64,000 nt of DNA, taken from Paracoccaceae bacterium. Its GTDB lineage: Bacteria; Pseudomonadota; Alphaproteobacteria; Rhodobacterales; Rhodobacteraceae. Positions 7,322 through 17,014 of this stretch are shown in pieces. Numbering within the stretch: position 1 is the first letter of the stretch; each line of letters starts with the position of its first letter. The position numbers were made by a program, and so were the translations under genes. A model generated the notes under the pieces. That model did not search any database. It was not told the DNA's origin and worked only from the letters and a program-made list of their open reading frames with translations. The stretch spans positions 62,001-126,000 of the forward strand of contig JANQPC010000065.1 in assembly GCA_028285485.1 (NCBI GenBank). Direction: 5' to 3'.

Positions 7322-8133
7322 ATGGCCAAGGTGCAATCCGCAGATGGAACCGTTGGTAAGGCGCTGGATGTGCTTGACCAGGTTGCCGCCTTCGGGCGGC
7401 CGGTGCGGTTTTCCGAACTTCTCGCCAAGAGCCGCTTTCCCAAGGCCACGCTCTATCGTTTTCTGCAAACGCTCACGAATCAGGGGATGCTGGCCTACGA
7501 TCCCGAGCGGCAGACTTATGCGCCGGGCATCCGGCTGGTGCGTCTGGCCCATGCTGCCTGGCAGCAATCCTCGCTCGCCCCGGTGGCCCGCCCGCATATC
7601 GATGCGCTTTCGGCGCGAATTGGGGAAACGGTGCATCTTGCCCAGCTTGATCACGGGCAGGTGCTTTACGTTGACAAACGCAATGCCGCAGAACCGCTGG
7701 AGATGTTCAGCGATGCCGGGCGGATCGGCCCGGCCTATTGCACCGGCGTTGGCAAAGCGATGCTGGCTTATCTGGAACCCACGGCGCTGACCGATGCGCT
7801 GGGCATGCAATCCTTCCACCGGTTCACGGGCAAAACCCATGCCGATGCCGCATCGCTCCGGGCCGATCTGGCCACGATACGCGAGCGCGGCTTTGCCTTT
7901 GATGACGAAGAGCACGAGCCGGGCATCATCTGCGTGGCCGTGCCGGTGCTTGCCCGCTCGGGCCGGGTTATGGGCGCGCTATCCGTTACGACATCGACGG
8001 AACGCGAAACACTTGCGGGGCTCTCGGGCCTTGCGCCGGAGCTGAAGGCGGCCGCCCGCGCGATCGCTGAGGAGGCGGGAAGCTGGCGCTTCCCGGAGGA
8101 GACACCGATCAACACCAGAATGGGGGTGGCATA

Positions 8134-8134
<1 letters not shown>
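7322..8134 (+). CDS. IclR-family transcriptional regulator
   Basis: 270 residues. The N-terminal winged helix-turn-helix (about 8-65) includes [13 protein letters not shown] and [13 protein letters not shown]. The C-terminal IclR effector domain spans about 80-255, with [13 protein letters not shown] and [17 protein letters not shown] precedes the ATG. Divergent from the galactoside operon and translationally coupled (TAATG) to the transporter ATPase, so it probably controls uptake and catabolism of galactosides, with a sugar or sugar-acid effector. Whether it represses or activates cannot be read from sequence. Confidence 0.9.
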
Positions 8135-9192
<1,058 letters not shown>

Positions 9193-9232: not shown

Positions 9233-10234
9233 CTACCCCGCCAGCGCATTGGCCTGAGCGATCAGGTCAACCCCCATCTGGTGAAAGAGATCGCCGTAGT
9301 CGAGGCACACCCAGTTCTCGGCGATCTTGCCGCGCGGCCCGCTGAAATCGCAGCGGTAGAAATCCATCACCCGAAGCGTGAGCGCCTTGCCCGAAGCGGG
9401 CACGCCCAGGTAATCGCCCCGATGCGTCATCGTCATCGAGGGCCAGCCGGAGACGGCGGCATAATTGCCATCACCGAGGCGGCAGTAATGGTTGCCGCCC
9501 TTGCGATCAGGGAAGGCGGCGAGGAAAGCCGCGCGGTGATCGGCAACGAATCCTTCCCAACGGTAGTTCGATCCGATGCCGGCCGGCCCGTACCACAGCA
9601 TATCGTCATGCCAGCGGCCGTCATGGCCCGTCTGACCTTCGGAATGCGCATTGTCGGGATCGTAGACGTGAAGATCCCCGAGCATCGCCTGAACAAGATC
9701 AAGGCTTGCTGTGCCACTTCCTGTGGCGGGCAGAACACCGTCATGGGTTGCCGGGCCCGGGAAAAGCATCTCGGTGCCCAGCATCGGCGGTAGCGGCATG
9801 CGGCCCGCCTGCCGGGCAAGATCGGGCAGATCAATGATGATCTTCGCCTCCGCGATCCGGCCCTCCTCGATGCGGTAGAATTCGCCGGACCGCAGGAAAG
9901 CCAGGCGTCGAGAGGGCAGAAGGCCGAAGAGCGGGGCGTGAAACGTGCCAACATAGTGCGTGACCGATGCGGCCCAGAGGCCACCGGCGGTGCGACTGTT
10001 CTCGCCGCCGATGAAGATCTCATCGCGCCGCCGCACATGCCCGAGCGCCGCGCGCAAGGGGCGCAGAAAGCCCTCGATCACGGCGGCCCGGCCTGAGAGG
10101 CGGTTCACCGGATGGGCGATATCCCAAACCGAGTCGTCCGCGATCACCTGCGCCGCGAGAGCCTCGAACCCCGCCTCGTTTGCCGCGATCAGCGCGTTCA
10201 AGGAGCGATGAATTTCTCGTCGGTAATCAGACAT
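9233..10234 (-). CDS. Double SnoaL/NTF2-like domain protein (ester-cyclase-like)
   Basis: 333-residue soluble protein made of two SnoaL-like halves. The second half has the recognisable YRWEGFVADHRAAFLAAFPD stretch and a C-terminal GKIAENWVCLDYGDLFHQMG. Start taken at the ATG at 10232-10234, preceded by AGAGG; an upstream in-frame ATG (10273) lies in the operator region. It is divergent from the second sugar transporter and shares the LacI operators. A similar double-domain protein lies at 16037-17014, on the other side of the same transporter. Catalytic role unknown; SnoaL folds include cyclases, isomerases and hydrolases. Confidence 0.75.
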   Translation of the reverse strand: MSDYRREIHRSLNALIAANEAGFEALAAQVIADDSVWDIAHPVNRLSGRAAVIEGFLRPLRAALGHVRRRDEIFIGGENSRTAGGLWAASVTHYVGTFHAPLFGLLPSRRLAFLRSGEFYRIEEGRIAEAKIIIDLPDLARQAGRMPLPPMLGTEMLFPGPATHDGVLPATGSGTASLDLVQAMLGDLHVYDPDNAHSEGQTGHDGRWHDDMLWYGPAGIGSNYRWEGFVADHRAAFLAAFPDRKGGNHYCRLGDGNYAAVSGWPSMTMTHRGDYLGVPASGKALTLRVMDFYRCDFSGPRGKIAENWVCLDYGDLFHQMGVDLIAQANALAG

Positions 10235-10255: not shown

Positions 10256-10275
10256 TTTTGAACACGAATGCAAAA
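10256..10275. promoter_or_regulatory. Second, weaker LacI-type operator
   Basis: TTTTG at the left and GCAAAA at the right surround a central CG at 10265-10266, with 6 of 9 symmetric positions matching. Its centre is 55 bp from that of the stronger site at 10311-10330, in the same divergent control region. This arrangement would allow a dimer pair or tetramer to bind both. Confidence 0.4.
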
Positions 10276-10310
10276 AAAGCTTGGCAAAACGGGCAGGCGC
10301 CGTCTAGCTT

Positions 10311-10330
10311 TTTTGCAAACGTGTGCAAAA
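10311..10330. promoter_or_regulatory. LacI-family operator
   Basis: ttttgcaaacgtgtgcaaaa is a 20-bp palindrome with a central CG and a single mismatched pair, the form typical of LacI/GalR-family operators. It lies 31 bp before the transporter ATPase start (10362) and in the divergent promoter region of the SnoaL-like gene. The LacI regulator at 14982-16004 in the same operon is the obvious candidate ligand. Confidence 0.75.
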
Positions 10331-10361
10331 AATGCCGCGACGCAAACAGGGGGAGGCCGAG

Positions 10362-11453
10362 ATGGCCGAAATCCAGCTGCGCAATGTCTCCAAACGCTGG
10401 GGCAATTTCGTGGGGGTCGACAGTTTCGACCTGACGATTGCCGATGAGGAGTTCCTTGTGCTTCTCGGCCCTTCTGGCTGCGGCAAGACCACCACGATGC
10501 GGATGATTGCGGGGCTTGAAGAGGCCACTGACGGTGAGATCGTGATCGACGGGCGCGTCGTCAACGATCTCGATCCCAAGGATCGCGATATCGCGATGGT
10601 GTTTCAGAGCTACGGGCTCTACCCCAACATGAACGTCTACGACAACATCCGCTTCCCGCTGAAGGTGCGCAAGGTGCCGGAGAGCGAGCATGACGAACGG
10701 GTGAAGCGCGCCGCGGCCATGGTGGAACTTGAGCCGTTCATGCATCGCAAACCGGCAGAGCTTTCGGGCGGCCAGCGCCAGCGCGTGGCTCTTGCCCGCG
10801 CCATTGTGCGCGAGCCCAACGTGTTTTTGATGGACGAACCGCTTTCGAACCTTGATGCCAAGCTTCGGGTCTCTACCCGCGCGCAGATCAAGAACCTCAG
10901 CCACGAACTGAAGGTCACCACGATCTACGTGACCCATGATCAGATCGAGGCGATGACACTTGCCGATCGCGTGGTGATCATGAAGCAGGGCGTTGTCCAG
11001 CAGGTGGGGACGCCGGTGGAGATTTACGACAATCCCGCCAACACTTTCGTGGCGGGATTTATCGGAAACCCGGCCATGAACCTGATGGATGGCACCCTTT
11101 CGGGCGGCAGCTTCACCGGAGAAAGCGTGGCGATCAGCGGGCTGTCCGGCCCTGATGGCTCCGTCACGCTAGGCTTTCGCGCCGAGGATGCGCGCGTGGT
11201 GGAAGCGGGCGGCGAGATCACCGCCACCGTCTACACGATGGAGCTCTTGGGCGACGCCACGATGATCACCGTGCGGGCAGGCGGCGCGCTCGTCAGCGTG
11301 AAGGCAAACAAGGAATACCGGGCGGAGATCGGCGATCGCGTTTCGATCTCTGTTCCGGCAGCGATCTGCCACCTCTTCGATCAGGAGACGGGGCAACGGA
11401 TCGGCGGGCATGCGCCCGGAAGTTCGGCCGCGGGGACGCTGGCGGCCGGTTGA
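10362..11453 (+). CDS. Sugar ABC transporter ATP-binding protein (second importer)
   Basis: 363 residues. Walker A GPSGCGKTTTMRM, Q-loop VFQSYGLYPNMNV, signature [15 protein letters not shown], Walker [15 protein letters not shown] and a C-terminal TOBE region. Start at the ATG at 10362, preceded by GGGGGAGG; upstream in-frame GTG and ATG codons (10323, 10332) lie in or beside the operator. First gene of a five-gene plus-strand operon ending with its LacI regulator. Confidence 0.92.
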   Translation: MAEIQLRNVSKRWGNFVGVDSFDLTIADEEFLVLLGPSGCGKTTTMRMIAGLEEATDGEIVIDGRVVNDLDPKDRDIAMVFQSYGLYPNMNVYDNIRFPLKVRKVPESEHDERVKRAAAMVELEPFMHRKPAELSGGQRQRVALARAIVREPNVFLMDEPLSNLDAKLRVSTRAQIKNLSHELKVTTIYVTHDQIEAMTLADRVVIMKQGVVQQVGTPVEIYDNPANTFVAGFIGNPAMNLMDGTLSGGSFTGESVAISGLSGPDGSVTLGFRAEDARVVEAGGEITATVYTMELLGDATMITVRAGGALVSVKANKEYRAEIGDRVSISVPAAICHLFDQETGQRIGGHAPGSSAAGTLAAG

Positions 11454-11504: not shown

Positions 11505-12722
11505 ATGATGAAGAAACTCTTGCTTGCAGGGGCGGCTTCGCTGGCGATGACCGGCGGCGCCTGGGCCTGCGCCTTTGAGAACACCGTTCCCGTCAGCTCG
11601 CTTTCGGCGGGCTTCGAGGCTTGGAAATCGGTCACCGAAGCCATGGCCGAATGCGGCAACTTCGAAGCCGAGCTCGATCAGGAATTCCGCACAAAGCAGC
11701 CCGCTGCCTTTGCCGCCAACCCCTCGCTTTACCAGATCGGCGGTGTTTCGAACGGAACCGTAACCCCGCTGATCAACGAAGGTACCATTCGCCCGCTCGA
11801 TGATCTTGTTGCGGCCTATGGGGAAAACCTCAGCCCCAATCAGCTGATCCGCGTGGATGGCCAGATCATGGCCGTTGCGATGATGGTGAACACCCAGCAC
11901 CTGATGTACCGCCAGGACATCTTCGATGAGCTGGGCCTTGCGGTTCCCACCACGTGGGACGAGGTGATCACCGTGGCCGAGGCGATCCAGGGCGCCGGTG
12001 TTGTGGATTACCCGCTGGGCGGCACGATGAAATCCGGCTGGAACCTCGCGCAGGATTTCAACAACATGTTCCTCGGTTTCGGCGGCCAGTTCGTGGGCGA
12101 CGATTCCATGCCCATGATCAATACCGAAGCCGGCATGAAGGCGCTCGACATGATGCAGCGCCTCACGGCCTTCATGGATCCCGAATATCTCGTTTCGGAT
12201 TCCACCTACGTGCAGCAGCAGTTCCAGCAGGGCAAGATCGCCATGGCGAACCTCTGGGCCTCGCGCGGCGGTGCGATGGATAACGAGGCTGAAAGCCAGG
12301 TTGTGGGCCTTGTGAATGCCGCGGCCGCGCCGCTGGCGATGGAAGGCGGGGCGCCGGCCACCACGCTTTGGTGGGACGGTATCGTGATCGCGAAGAACAT
12401 CACCGATGAAGAGGCCGAAGCCGCGTTCCGCGTGGCAATGGAAGGGCTCGATACCGAGATGGTGCAGGGCGCCAATGACGAGGCGATCTGGCTGATTTCC
12501 GGCTATGAACCGAACCGCCTGGCCGCTGGCGCGATCGCCACGGCAACGGCTTCACCGCCGCCCGCCTCTTACCCCTCAACAAGCCAGATGGGCCTGATGC
12601 ACACCGCGCTTGGCAATGAGCTTCCGGCGTTCTTCACCGGTGAACGCGGCGCAGAAGATACGCTTGCAGCCATAGAAGAGGCCTACATCACTGCCGCCAA
12701 AGAGGCGGGTATTCTGGAGTAA
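11505..12722 (+). CDS. Sugar ABC transporter periplasmic binding protein (second importer)
   Basis: 405 residues with a signal peptide (MMKKLLLAGAASLAMTGGAWA) and cleavage before Cys22. The cleavage site looks Sec/signal-peptidase-I-like, with the Cys probably structural, rather than a standard lipobox. Central segments WDEVITVAEAIQGAG and IAMANLWASRGGAMDN fit family 1 extracellular solute-binding proteins. GGGAGA lies about 10 nt upstream of the ATG at 11505. Followed by a strong hairpin before the permeases. Substrate not identifiable; a mono-, di- or polyol sugar is likely. Confidence 0.9.
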   Translation: MMKKLLLAGAASLAMTGGAWACAFENTVPVSSLSAGFEAWKSVTEAMAECGNFEAELDQEFRTKQPAAFAANPSLYQIGGVSNGTVTPLINEGTIRPLDDLVAAYGENLSPNQLIRVDGQIMAVAMMVNTQHLMYRQDIFDELGLAVPTTWDEVITVAEAIQGAGVVDYPLGGTMKSGWNLAQDFNNMFLGFGGQFVGDDSMPMINTEAGMKALDMMQRLTAFMDPEYLVSDSTYVQQQFQQGKIAMANLWASRGGAMDNEAESQVVGLVNAAAAPLAMEGGAPATTLWWDGIVIAKNITDEEAEAAFRVAMEGLDTEMVQGANDEAIWLISGYEPNRLAAGAIATATASPPPASYPSTSQMGLMHTALGNELPAFFTGERGAEDTLAAIEEAYITAAKEAGILE

Positions 12723-12815: not shown

Positions 12816-13841
12816 ATGAAATTCCGCACCTTCGCGATGTTCGTCGGCCCGTCGATCTTTCTGATGATCCTCTTCATCGCCGCGCCGCTCGCAACCGTGT
12901 TCCTGCAAAGCTTCCAGATCACCCAGCCGGTGGTGGAAACCCAGCAGGTGGAAACCTGCACGCCCGGCTTTCTGGAACAAACCTGCGTGACGGAAACGAA
13001 AACCGTGCCGGTGCTTGATGAGTTCGGTAACCCGGTGACGACAACAGAGTGGGTGGGCTTCCTAAGCTACCAGCGGGTGCTGCAGCTTGATCGTGTGGGC
13101 GCCGCACTCGCCGCGGGCAGCTGGCAGCAGATCATGGCGATCGATTTCTGGAAGGCGCTGCGCTTTACGCTGACCTTCACGCTGCTCACCCTGCCGCTGA
13201 TCCTCGTGGTGGGCCTTGGCCTTGCCGTGGCCGTGAACAACGCCGCCAAGGCGATCCGCGGGCAGATCATCTTCGTGTCGCTGCTGCCTTTCATCATCAC
13301 GCCAGTGATCGGCTCGCTTTCGATCTACTGGCTTTTCGTGGGCGACGGGATTTTGACAGCGGGGCTCGAATGGTGGCTCGAACGCGATATCGCGATGTTC
13401 GCGCAAGCCTGGACGATCGAAGTTCTCATGCTTTTCTACCGCGTCTGGCACGTGGCGCCCTTTGCCTTCGTGATCTTCTACGCGGGCCTACAAACGGTAA
13501 ATCAGGATACGCTGGAATCCGCGATCATCGATGGCGCCAGCCGGTGGGACAGGCTGCGTTACGTGGTGATCCCGCATCTGATGCCGCTTATCATCTTCGT
13601 CTCGCTGATCCACCTCATGGATGCCTACCGGGTGTTCGAAGAGGTCGTGGGTTTCCGCAGCCAGGCGCATGTGATCTCGCTGCAGTGGCTGACCTACGAT
13701 TTCCTCGAACCCGATGATGCGGGCAACCGGGCGATCAGCCGGGCCTCGGCCTCGGCCATGTTGACGATGATCGGGATCGTGATCCTTCTGATCCCGCTCC
13801 TGCGCCGCACATGGCGCGATCACAAGGGGAGCTCGCACTGA
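12816..13841 (+). CDS. Sugar ABC transporter permease (MalF type) with periplasmic insert
   Basis: 341 residues. The first membrane helix (about 8-30) is followed by a soluble stretch of about 80 residues containing two cysteines (CTPGFLEQTC). The permease core then starts near residue 112, with the EAA-type loop SAIIDGASRWDRLRYV near 230-245. The insert makes it longer than a typical 290-residue permease. TGATG overlap with the next gene shows translational coupling. Confidence 0.88.
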   Translation: MKFRTFAMFVGPSIFLMILFIAAPLATVFLQSFQITQPVVETQQVETCTPGFLEQTCVTETKTVPVLDEFGNPVTTTEWVGFLSYQRVLQLDRVGAALAAGSWQQIMAIDFWKALRFTLTFTLLTLPLILVVGLGLAVAVNNAAKAIRGQIIFVSLLPFIITPVIGSLSIYWLFVGDGILTAGLEWWLERDIAMFAQAWTIEVLMLFYRVWHVAPFAFVIFYAGLQTVNQDTLESAIIDGASRWDRLRYVVIPHLMPLIIFVSLIHLMDAYRVFEEVVGFRSQAHVISLQWLTYDFLEPDDAGNRAISRASASAMLTMIGIVILLIPLLRRTWRDHKGSSH

Positions 13842-14998
13842 TGTCTACCCCCAAGGCCCTTCGCCAACCGTTTTCGCTGCGCCTGGGCTCGGCCGCATTT
13901 CTCATCTTCTGGTGCCTGATTGCGGCCTTCCCGATCTTCTGGATCGGGGTGATGAGCTTCAAGGTGCCCGTGGATGCCTTTGCGCCGAACCCGTTCGACG
14001 TGGTGTTCGGGCCGGAAACGCGGGCGCGCGGTAAGGGTCTCTCAATCCTCGATATCGTTCTGGGGCTCGTCGTTTTGTGGTTCGCCGCGCGGGTGGCGAT
14101 GCGCAACCTTTCCCCGCTGGTTGCCAAATACTCACCCTTCGGCGTGGTGGCGCTGGGCTGGATCGCCGCCTCGCTCGCCTTCGGCGTGGGCTTCGTGATC
14201 GTATTCTTCGGGATCCTGCCCCCGATCCTTGGCGTTCTGAACGGCATCGCCGGGCCCCTTGGCGCGCCGATCATCGGGCTGACAACGGAGCATTATCAGG
14301 CGGTCTGGTTCGAAAACGAGTTCTGGCGGAATTTCGTGAACTCTCTGATCGTGACCACCGGCGTTGTGACCGTTTCGCTGACGGTGGGAACTCTGGCGGG
14401 CTACGGCCTTGCGCGCTCGGGCTCGAATATCGCGTTCTGGATTCTGATCATCGCACTGATCTTTCGCGCGCTGCCGCATTCGGTTCTGGTGGCGGGTTAC
14501 CTGCCGGTGTTCGTGAACTCCGCCGAGATCCTGCGCCCGATCCTGGGCGAGGCGGCGCCCACGCTTTACGGCCAGCCTCTGGCGGTCATCGCGGTGCTCG
14601 TCTCCATCAACCAGCCCTTCACGATCTGGATGCTGCGTTCGTTCTTCCAGTCGATCCCGGTGGATCTGGATGAAAGCGCCCGCGTGGATGGCTGCACCCA
14701 TTTCCAGGCGTTCCGCTGGGTGATCATGCCGGTGATGTGGCCGGGGGTGATAACCACGGGTCTCTTCAGCTTCCTTCTGGCCTACAACGATTTTCTCGTC
14801 ACCTCGCTATTGCTCGATGCGCAGAACCAGACGATGGTTCCGGGCATCGTGGGCTACTTCAACCGGGAAACAACGACAACCGATCAGGTTGAGGCCGTGG
14901 CGGCCGCCGTTTCGATCACGGCACCGCTGTTCCTTCTGGTGATGGTGTTCCAGCGCCAGATCGTAAGCGGGTTGACCGCCGGTGCCGTCAAGGGCTGA
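13841..14998 (+). CDS. Sugar ABC transporter permease (MalG type) with extra membrane segments
   Basis: 385 residues against the usual 275-300. Between the first helix (about 15-38) and the permease core (from about residue 150) lie two extra hydrophobic segments (about 68-85 and 105-140). The EAA loop is DESARVDGCTHFQAFRWV. Start is the ATG at 13841, sharing one base with the previous TGA. The long form recalls AglG-type alpha-glucoside permeases, but substrate cannot be concluded. Its 3' end overlaps the LacI gene by 17 bp. Confidence 0.87.
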   Translation: MSTPKALRQPFSLRLGSAAFLIFWCLIAAFPIFWIGVMSFKVPVDAFAPNPFDVVFGPETRARGKGLSILDIVLGLVVLWFAARVAMRNLSPLVAKYSPFGVVALGWIAASLAFGVGFVIVFFGILPPILGVLNGIAGPLGAPIIGLTTEHYQAVWFENEFWRNFVNSLIVTTGVVTVSLTVGTLAGYGLARSGSNIAFWILIIALIFRALPHSVLVAGYLPVFVNSAEILRPILGEAAPTLYGQPLAVIAVLVSINQPFTIWMLRSFFQSIPVDLDESARVDGCTHFQAFRWVIMPVMWPGVITTGLFSFLLAYNDFLVTSLLLDAQNQTMVPGIVGYFNRETTTTDQVEAVAAAVSITAPLFLLVMVFQRQIVSGLTAGAVKG

Positions 14999-16004
14999 GC
15001 CGCGGCCGGCGGGCAAGGTCACCTCTCTGGAGGTGGCCGAGCGCGCGGGCGTGAGCCGCTCGGCGGTGAGCCGGGTATTCACCCCCGGCGCCAGCGTTTC
15101 GCGGAAAACGGCAGAGAAGGTGCGCCGCGCGGCGGATGAGCTGGGCTATCGCCCCAATGTTCTGGCCCGTTCTCTGATGACAGGGCGCAGCCGGATGATC
15201 GGGCTGCTCGTGGCTTATCTCGATAACCACTTCTACCCCATCGTGCTGGAACAGCTTTCGAACGCGCTCCAGGCGCGGGGCTATCACGTTCTGGTTTTCA
15301 TGGCCTCCCAGGCGGAGGGAGATCTCGACAGGGTGGCCGAAGAGATCCTCGATTACCAGGTGGACGGGATGATCCTCGCCAGCGTGGCGATGACATCGGA
15401 TATTGCCGCGCGCTGCCGCGCGTCTGGCGTGCCCGTGGTGCTGTTCAACCGCCGGCAGGGCGAGCCGGGGGAACTCGCGGTGGTGTCCGATAACTACGCG
15501 GGCGGGCGGCTGGTGGCCGAGCACCTGCTGGCGCTCGGGCGCAAGCGGATTGCGCATATCGCGGGGTGGGCAGGCGCCTCGACCCAGGCCGATCGCGAGG
15601 CGGGTTTCCTCGATGGCCTGCGCGCAGGCGGTGCGGCGCTTTTCGCGCGGGAGGTCGGGGATTTCCGGCCCGAACTTGCAAAGAAGGCCGCCCGGCGCAT
15701 GTTCGCAGGGCCGGAGCTGCCCGATGCCGTGTTCGTGGCAAATGATTACATGGCCTTTGTCGTGATGGATGTCTTGCGCGCTGAGCTTGGGTTGAGCGTG
15801 CCGGGCGATGTGGCCGTTGCCTCGTTTGACGATGTGCCAACCTCGGCCTGGCCGAGCTATGATCTTACATCGGTGCGCCAGGATGCGCGCGCGATGGTGG
15901 CCGCGACGACGGAGCTGATCGTGGCCCGCATCGAAGGGCGCGCAGCGGTGGCACCCGCAGCCCTGCCTGTGGAACTGATCGTGCGCAGCTCTACGGTGGG
16001 TTAG
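14982..16004 (+). CDS. LacI-family transcriptional regulator
   Basis: 340 residues beginning with GTG at 14982 inside the end of the permease gene. The LacI helix-turn-helix is SLEVAERAGVSRSAVSRVF (about 15-33) with hinge YRPNVLARSLMTGRSRMIG. The periplasmic-binding-protein-like sensor follows, with DGMILAS, FVANDYMAFVVMDVLR and VASFDDVPTSAWPSYDLTSVRQD. Last gene of the second sugar operon; it probably represses from the operators at 10311-10330 and 10256-10275 and is released by the transported sugar. Confidence 0.9.
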   Translation: MPSRAEPRPAGKVTSLEVAERAGVSRSAVSRVFTPGASVSRKTAEKVRRAADELGYRPNVLARSLMTGRSRMIGLLVAYLDNHFYPIVLEQLSNALQARGYHVLVFMASQAEGDLDRVAEEILDYQVDGMILASVAMTSDIAARCRASGVPVVLFNRRQGEPGELAVVSDNYAGGRLVAEHLLALGRKRIAHIAGWAGASTQADREAGFLDGLRAGGAALFAREVGDFRPELAKKAARRMFAGPELPDAVFVANDYMAFVVMDVLRAELGLSVPGDVAVASFDDVPTSAWPSYDLTSVRQDARAMVAATTELIVARIEGRAAVAPAALPVELIVRSSTVG

Positions 16005-16036: not shown

Positions 16037-17014
16037 CTACCCGGTCGCCAGAAGGATCTGTTTCCAGATCGCGGTTTCGTCGATCAGCGTCCATTCCCGG
16101 CGAAGGCCGCGCGGCCCGAACTCCGCATGGGTGATCCCCATAATGTAGACTTGGGCGTTGCTCGGCGCGCCGAAGCTGCCCCAGCCTTCATGGCGGCCCG
16201 AAAGGCTCCACCGCACCGCCGCGCGCGGCGGCATATGCGCGCTTTCCTGCCCGATCGCGTGCTCGATCCGGAATGCGGCCGAGGGGAAGGCGGCGCGGAG
16301 GCCCAGCCAATGGGCATCCGCCGCCGCATGGCCATGGGCATGCACATGCCCCGCATAGGCCAGCTCGCACGCGCGATCATACTCTGCGGGGATCACCGAG
16401 AACTCGGCCTCCATCATCCGGGCGAGCAGATCGGCCAGCTGCGCCCCCCACGGGCTGTCATTGCCGCGGCCCCTATAGGGGCCGGGGAGATCGATGGCCG
16501 GAGTGAACGGGCGCACGCAAGCCTCGGGCCCGCCCTCGCGCGCGATCAGCGCGCGCGTCCAGGCCACCACATCCCGCCCCATCTGCCGCACGATGGCGCC
16601 CTGGTCGCGCACCAGCCATTCATCGGCCACCGCGTTCCCCTCGCAGAAGCAATCGGCAAGAATGCGGTAGGCCAGGCGCCGGCCCGTAGGAGCGCCGTAA
16701 AGGCCGGGGCCAGTATGCGTGGCGGTGCAATAAAGACGGTGCGAGGAAAGAAAGCTTGTGGGCGAAACCTCCGCCCAGATCACATCCTCGCCCGGCAACG
16801 CGCGGTCCGGAAACTCCGCCAGCGTTGCCTGCGTTGCCGCGATGATCCCGGCATTGCCCTGCACAACCGAAGCGGGGGAGCGCACGATCATATCCGGCCC
16901 GTAGTAGCGGATAAGCCGGTCAATGCCGCGCTCTTCCCAGATCTCGCGCGTGATCCCAAGCACGAAATCCTCTTCCGAACCCCAGCGCGCCTCAAAGCCC
17001 GGGCGAAACGCCAT
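16037..17014 (-). CDS. Double SnoaL/NTF2-like domain protein, coupled to soeC-like gene
   Basis: 325 residues, two SnoaL-like halves, no signal peptide. Features include RLIRYYGPDMIVRSP near the start, RLAYRILADCFCEGNAVADEW in the first half (YRILADCFCEGN at its core) and a C-terminal REWTLIDETAIWKQILLATG. The ATG overlaps the TGA of the membrane-anchor gene (TGATG), so it is translated as the fourth gene of the molybdoenzyme operon, yet its closest visible relative here is the SnoaL-like protein at 9233-10234 beside the sugar transporter. Function unknown. Confidence 0.75.
   Translation of the reverse strand: MAFRPGFEARWGSEEDFVLGITREIWEERGIDRLIRYYGPDMIVRSPASVVQGNAGIIAATQATLAEFPDRALPGEDVIWAEVSPTSFLSSHRLYCTATHTGPGLYGAPTGRRLAYRILADCFCEGNAVADEWLVRDQGAIVRQMGRDVVAWTRALIAREGGPEACVRPFTPAIDLPGPYRGRGNDSPWGAQLADLLARMMEAEFSVIPAEYDRACELAYAGHVHAHGHAAADAHWLGLRAAFPSAAFRIEHAIGQESAHMPPRAAVRWSLSGRHEGWGSFGAPSNAQVYIMGITHAEFGPRGLRREWTLIDETAIWKQILLATG

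Follow-up and report, generated by a model that had tools for sequence, protein, structure and literature searches.

A conserved pair of LacI-type operators predicted to frame the promoter of an ABC transporter operon in a Paracoccaceae bacterium

Operators of LacI-family regulators are, as a rule, even palindromes with a central CG; in local regulons more than one site lies before about 20% of the regulated operons, with intersite peaks at 13, 22 and 32 bp (Ravcheev et al., 2014, PMC4052901). In the gal system of Escherichia coli, the GalR operators OE and OI lie at −60.5 and +53.5, and the upstream GalR works by contact inhibition (PMC4693257). A published LacI code pairs Arg at AA-20 with G at NT-6, names the helix residue AA-15 as a specificity determinant and, in three main patterns, ties this residue to NT-5/NT-4 and partly to NT-2 (Camas et al., 2010, PMC2978694). 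The DHPS genes of Ruegeria pomeroyi, which include a LacI-family regulator, are arranged as hpsR-hpsKLM-hpsNOP (PMC4334477).

Here we analysed a locus in a stretch of 64,000 nt from a Paracoccaceae bacterium (the window; Table 1). It shares with the regulons described by Ravcheev et al. (2014, PMC4052901) a central-CG even palindrome, a site near the start codon, a regulator beside a transport operon and multiple sites; unlike the intersite peaks given there, the spacing here is 54–56 bp, with promoter-like sequence between the sites. With E. coli gal it has in common a LacI-family repressor and one operator 5' and one 3' of the promoter, but in gal the operators lie at a distance of 113 bp, looping is assisted by HU and there are two promoters (PMC4693257), whereas a single promoter is predicted here. 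The locus is best regarded as a well-conserved case of ordinary LacI-family repression, a known kind of system, in which a pair of operators frames a predicted promoter.

Table 1. Features of the locus (positions are those of the window)
Feature	Position	Strand	Evidence
Two-domain SnoaL-like gene, divergent from the ABC operon	9233–10234	−	Pfam PF07366/PF12680
Distal (weak) operator TTTTGAACACGAATGCAAAA	10256–10275	.	7/10 dyad positions paired (read from sequence)
5-nt gap from distal operator to −35 box, continues the A-tract	10276–10280	+	Sequence
Predicted −35 box TTGGCA	10281–10286	+	Conserved CTTGCCA/CTTGGCA between or beside operators
Predicted −10 box TAGCTT, 18-nt spacer, abuts proximal operator	10305–10310	+	Alignment of relatives
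Proximal (strong) operator TTTTGCAAACGTGTGCAAAA	10311–10330	.	9/10 dyad positions paired
Likely ribosome-binding site GGGGGAGG of the ABC-ATPase gene	10349–10356	+	Sequence
ABC transporter ATPase, UgpC/MalK type, first operon gene	10362–11453	+	NCBIfam NF008653, 456.8 bits, cut-off 432 (ORF from 10323)
Family-1 extracellular solute-binding protein	11505–12722	+	Pfam PF01547, 3.6e-21 (ORF from 11460)
ABC permease 1	12816–13841	+	Pfam PF00528
ABC permease 2	13841–14998	+	Pfam PF00528
LacI-family regulator, recognition helix VSRSAVSRV (R-type), last operon gene	14982–16004	+	Pfam PF00356, 8.3e-13; PF13377, 2.2e-27
Second SnoaL-like gene, convergent with the LacI gene	16037–17014	−	Pfam PF07366

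The last gene of the operon overlaps the preceding permease gene, and its product combines a LacI helix-turn-helix with a periplasmic-binding-protein-like sensor domain, which places it in the LacI/GalR family. The regulator is probably autoregulated, because its gene ends the operon. Its recognition helix reads VSRSAVSRV; many relatives have VSQSAVSRV (Q-type). The divergent SnoaL gene starts with ATG at 10234, and a longer ORF begins with TTG. The best PDB sequence match of the solute-binding protein stood at 1.7e-14; we dropped the idea of reading a transport substrate from its PDB relatives, since the matches were of that quality at best and went to varied sugar binders. At 7322–9192 the window also encodes a regulator of the IclR type and another ABC ATPase of the UgpC type; they converge with the SnoaL gene, and relatives of both occupy the same place in locus L019.

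LacI relatives were found in 48 named loci. At E ≤ 1e-70 they occur in 126 of 295 family genomes, including that of the window, and SnoaL relatives at 1e-30 in 117 of 295. The order SnoaL, ABC ATPase, binding protein, two permeases and LacI recurs partly or wholly in relatives, and a relative of the second SnoaL-like gene adjoins the LacI gene in many related loci. Five loci (L054, L020, L026, L029 and L030) carry a one-domain SnoaL gene, an HpsN-like dehydrogenase gene, a two-domain SnoaL gene and an SDR gene before LacI, and SnoaL and cupin genes after it. Among the matches listed in searches of the open-access literature, nothing concerned this SnoaL/ABC/LacI gene cluster.

A sequence-only reading of the window had claimed two LacI-type operators, 55 bp apart, between a SnoaL-like gene and a sugar operon that ends with a LacI gene. 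The coordinates, the dyads and the spacing, which is the same between centres as between starts, were confirmed, and the genes around the pair were found as described. The strong site is an even palindrome with a central CG and G at half-site position 6, all features of LacI-type operators; extended to 10309–10332, it has arms of 12 nt that are 92% complementary. The two sites form a direct repeat 80% identical over 25 nt and an inverted repeat 86% complementary over 22 nt. Of the 16 positions conserved among relatives, the weak site holds 15; for six places 54–56 bp from the strong site, the probability of this by chance is about 5e-8 under simple base composition. A 22-base pattern made from the strong site matched the window once with up to 3 mismatches, against 0 expected. 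The window contains nine even 20-bp dyads in which 9 or more of the 10 positions pair, compared with 0–6 in ten mononucleotide shuffles. Because equally good dyads are thus present elsewhere in the window, it is conservation that provides the evidence.

We collected 89 regions 5' of related ABC-ATPase starts, 87 of them distinct (2 duplicates), with 20 of the 89 taken from named loci. The SnoaL upstream regions came from 30 loci plus 77 more from the matches listed, about one match per genome; 40 of these 107 were excluded as the ABC start was absent from the stretch read. A length filter removed L131, L133 and L190, two with a pair 55 bp apart and one with just one site. A further five regions were chosen individually: L092, L095, L301 and L302, because a site was already known there in a genome with an R-type LacI, and L303, around an R-type LacI. 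A site was accepted with up to 4 mismatches over 16 fixed positions.

The motif might have been absent beside orthologous LacI operons; instead, at least one site was present in 74 of the 87 distinct regions (69 of 82 when the five chosen ones are set aside). Two sites 54–56 bp apart were found in 36 regions, 34 of them from separate family genomes, whereas 38 had a single site or no partner at that distance and 13 had none. The spacing was 54 bp in 13 pairs, 55 bp in 18 and 56 bp in 5; the remaining spacings of at least 15 bp accounted for 9 site pairs altogether in the 89 regions, and 20 rounds of mononucleotide shuffling of the regions gave 0 pairs. At 5 mismatches there were 38 pairs at 54–56 bp and 16 at other spacings. 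The 20-mer of the strong operator recurs letter for letter as the proximal site of 7 other family genomes, and TTTTGCANNCGNNTGCAAAA has exact matches in 58 of 295 family genomes (reversed control, 0). The 13 regions without a site at the threshold comprised 10 distant loci of Rhodospirillales/Acetobacteraceae type, 2 in which the ABC gene lies inside an operon, and the region of genome G152. The distal partner is missing in eight R-type relatives (G256, G140, G180, G133, G123, G105, G230 and G098), so the weak site of the window may matter little.

An origin as chance A/T-rich palindromes, or a role as an RNA hairpin in the leader, draws on the nine comparable dyads in the window and on the position of the proximal site, which would be partly transcribed. 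With letters conserved and place fixed throughout the 36 paired regions, however, such an explanation can hardly hold, and the distal site cannot act as RNA of the ABC transcript because it lies 5' of the predicted promoter. We rejected a chance palindrome on conservation, though dyad symmetry alone exceeds the shuffles by little.

Two other elements were seen during these searches. The 10 Rhodospirillales/Acetobacteraceae-type loci (L035–L037, L039, L041–L043, L046, L047 and L056) carry TTGCATACGTAGTC followed by a TGTCAA-type element 5' of the ABC gene; one half-site is kept and the other changed, and their LacI is of the Q-type (VSQSAVSR). A second operator class with an ACCGGT core (TTTTGCAACCGGTTGCAAAA) has exact matches in 15 of 295 family genomes, and in 4 of 6 loci read it adjoins another LacI gene, 33–35% identical to that of the window. 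These loci are L097, L099, L102, L104, L107 and L112, together with L004 and L005 on contig C24 of the own genome; in L004, too, the site lies beside another LacI gene.

The sequence between the paired operators of relatives reads CTTGCCAA...GTCTAGCCT or similar and resembles a promoter, TTGCCA-18-TAnnnT, one per pair. Among the 74 regions with a site, 59 could be scored and 15 could not; in a scan allowing 16–19 nt, the spacer was 18 nt in 58 of the 59. In 31 of the 32 scored pairs the distal operator stood 5 nt from the −35 box, and in the other pair 4 nt; the gap between the −10 box and the proximal operator was −1, 0 or +1, the source of most of the variation between 54 and 56 bp. Regions with one operator agree: in 22 with only the proximal site the gap to the −10 box was 0 in 17 and at most 2 nt in the rest, and in 5 with only the distal site the gap to the −35 box was 5 nt. 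The A-tract is also present in regions without a distal operator. These counts use box definitions seeded from the same alignments, because the promoter was recognised only from aligned relatives; a generic sigma-70 scan did not list the boxes between the operators. Assuming a transcription start 7 nt past the −10 box, the proximal operator would cover about −6 to +14.

With the gap to the −35 box and the 18-nt spacer fixed, operator spacing appears tied to the promoter, and since one such sequence lies between the sites, 55 bp would be the length of a promoter. This tends to speak against helical phasing as the cause of the spacing. The helix repeats every 10.5 bp, so that 54–56 bp correspond to 5.1–5.3 turns, not a whole number. 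Selection for a small repression loop, in which the promoter is trapped between sites bridged by two dimers or a tetramer, would account for the narrow range of distances just given, and 55 bp between lac operators is reportedly amenable to looping by E. coli LacI (PMC7804116). Yet in the 32 scored pairs the spacing goes with the promoter, and the regions with one site, 22 proximal-only and 5 distal-only, have that site at almost the same distance from the promoter; we therefore consider this explanation unlikely.

Joint control of the two transcription units, which the sequence-only reading had allowed, would mean one operator per gene, the distal one repressing a divergent SnoaL promoter and the proximal one the ABC promoter. 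The distal site lies just 21 bp from the SnoaL start codon, and in many genomes the operators of the pair are mirror images. But nothing promoter-like was found on the SnoaL side in the 32 aligned pair regions, the distal site stands alone before ABC genes that have no SnoaL match in the flank read (L092 and L095), and the SnoaL gene is still divergent where the distal site is absent (L058–L063). This arrangement is possible but doubtful. On the SnoaL side of 9 closely related proximal-only R-type regions we observed conserved columns, for which no interpretation was reached.

We regard it as highly probable that a LacI-family repressor, chiefly the product of the gene at 14982–16004, uses the two sites as operators, and that these frame a single promoter and serve to repress a catabolic regulon in the ordinary way. 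That promoter, of the sigma-70 type (TTGGCA-18-TAGCTT, 10281–10310), would drive the operon from the ABC ATPase gene through the binding protein and permease genes to lacI. Repressor at the proximal site would cover the transcription start and block RNA polymerase; at the distal site, just 5' of the −35 box, it would strengthen the block, either by hindering polymerase there or by pairing up with the dimer bound downstream. Release of the repressor would be brought about by the imported compound or one of its products. Most simply, the pair is an ordinary on/off switch for an uptake pathway. Binding, promoter activity, the sign of regulation, induction, autoregulation, the effector and any effect on the divergent SnoaL gene are what we infer here from sequence.

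To relate regulator and operator, we compared the recognition helix with the half-site facing the ABC gene; for single sites this half was used even where the site is 5' of the promoter. LacI genes came from chosen genomes (30 loci, 60 N-terminal stretches and 17 full genes), and helix type was set per genome, the R-type being taken where both types exist. With the 13 regions lacking a site left out of the half-site counts, and a further 7 with unassigned helix type left out of the Fisher tests, the half-site GCACAC was present in 16 of 19 regions with helix VSR, the type of the window, and in 1 of 48 with VSQ. Position 3 of this half is C in 16, A in 3 and T in none of the 19 R-type regions (C 11 and A 3 of 14 without the five added ones). 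In the 48 Q-type regions it is T in 38, A in 8, and C and G in one each. For C at position 3, R against Q, Fisher's test gave about 1e-11, a value for regions that are related by descent and not independent.

On a LacI tree of 81 rows the R/Q residue needs 4 changes, of which strongly supported branches force only 1, and an independent-pairs test on this tree was underpowered, with significance out of reach; the correspondence rests on about four lineages. The ABC-facing half is without T in every R group of the tree: the large group with the window LacI has C, or A in G123 and G184, and the smaller groups have A in G126, C in the G055 group and C in G058. One exception is G081, with an A/C operator before the ABC gene, yet a Q-type protein as the sole LacI found at 1e-70.

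Gln commonly contacts A, and Arg contacts G, here read on the other strand. In pairing Arg at AA-20 with G at NT-6, the window system conforms to the LacI code as published (Camas et al., 2010, PMC2978694), and AA-15 appears as a determinant in both; here, however, AA-15 (Q/R) goes with NT-3 (T/C), whereas the patterns given there mainly concern positions 5 and 4. If the correspondence holds, position 3 would add to that code. The claim that the sites are LacI-type operators for the linked LacI is well supported by conservation in relatives and by this correspondence between helix and half-site, and the LacI encoded at 14982–16004 is most likely the regulator of the pair.

The sequence-only reading had also proposed a search of the genome for the motif. 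An 18-base pattern with up to 3 mismatches matched 8 places in the 3.79-Mb own genome (reversed control, 0). Beyond the window, sites lie at three other places of the same pathway: on contig C111 before an HpsN-like gene, on C15 before the SDR-LacI2 genes, with SnoaL2 and cupin genes downstream, and on C94 between two SnoaL genes. Among the remaining matches, two on C24 have the ACCGGT core and one on C101 looks like chance. A 20-base search added a site on C73, where no pathway gene was recognised within the 3.2 kb read. The sequence-only reading had missed these further sites and a second LacI paralogue, a Q-type (VSQ) protein encoded on C15 and 59% identical to that of the window. What the motif predicts is therefore a regulon under two repressors.

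The C15 protein, rather than the linked R-type LacI, could be the main reader of the window sites. It belongs to the same genome, Q-type proteins accompany the same motif elsewhere, and the weak site has one R-type half (ACAC) and one Q-type half (CATTC). The strong site, however, is A/C, like those of all nine genomes with two paralogues, and the operator before the HpsN-like gene has T and no C in eight of the nine. We hold this possibility to be very unlikely, and keep the linked LacI as the chief regulator.

As the dehydrogenase of the regulon resembles HpsN, we considered the DHPS pathway. With the Ruegeria pomeroyi cluster the system shares a LacI-family regulator beside a histidinol-dehydrogenase-like enzyme and a transporter; the transporter there is of the TRAP type (hpsKLM), whereas here it is an ABC transporter (PMC4334477). 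SnoaL, cupin and SDR genes are found in the related clusters here, and hpsKLM TRAP, hpsO and hpsP genes were not seen beside the regulator in the window and related loci, where it is accompanied by the ABC transporter and SnoaL genes. The word HpsR was absent from the matches listed in the literature search. The C111 enzyme (L003, 80–1411) is closer to HpsN (3.5e-117) than to HisD (1e-74). HpsN, the DHPS 3-dehydrogenase, has the signature G-R-Y-A/S-H with the sulfonate-binding His126, and histidinol dehydrogenase HisD has G-S-A-P-L (PMC11382572). Alignment to 8wwe and 8v35 showed GKFPM instead in the C111 enzyme, and the same letters occur in it and its orthologues in 18 of 18 matches and in 41 of 41 matches from overlapping loci. 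Proteins about 50% identical to it in L329 and L330 have GRYSH, as in true HpsN. We therefore rejected the enzyme as HpsN, where GRY[AS]H is replaced, did not assign it to HisD, and rejected the DHPS pathway, since the defining HpsN motif is absent from the dehydrogenase of the regulon.

In many loci the GKFPM dehydrogenase subfamily accompanies the SnoaL and LacI genes of the cluster, and contigs C76 and C63 of the own genome encode two more dehydrogenase relatives at 50% identity. Contig C111 stops shortly after the HpsN-like gene, and the start of C15 falls within a SnoaL gene, which would fit adjacent contigs in the L054 order. Several SDR-LacI2 and SnoaL operators have a central GG or CC instead of CG (L332, 2383–2402; L344, 1498–1517; L336, 4799–4818; L333, 1897–1916; L339, 2501–2520; L340, 2614–2633).

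Nine genomes, the own genome among them, hold both LacI types. Their ABC operators are A/C in all nine. The operators of the HpsN-like gene have T and no C in eight (G133 at 3 mismatches), the exception being G098 with A/C. An SDR-LacI2 operator was found in six; in each of them one half has T and the other C, and it is the T half that faces SDR. At 3 mismatches none was found in G105, G230 and G133. The SnoaL site was mixed in three of the four examined (G000, G180 and G105; not G140).

One reading of this pattern is that R-type and Q-type paralogues split one regulon by a single helix residue, with hybrid operators read by both or by a heterodimer. The R operators would be the A/C sites at ABC genes and the Q operators the T/T or T/A sites at the HpsN-like gene, while the hybrids (the SDR-LacI2 and SnoaL promoters, perhaps also the weak site of the window) would wire the two repressors into one switch. 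G081, for which a Q-type LacI is the only one found, agrees with this at SDR (T/A) and disagrees at ABC (A/C). Common descent could account for much of the pattern, and we regard the split as a speculative and rather improbable reading next to ordinary repression chiefly by the linked LacI.

As judged by these comparisons, a duplicated repressor may be insulated from its copy by one residue. The locus may offer a natural experiment on such insulation, with a single Gln/Arg exchange in the recognition helix set against a single base pair in each half-site. The analysis assigns a predicted binding motif and regulon to a gene cluster whose LacI and SnoaL relatives are common in the family of the bacterium.
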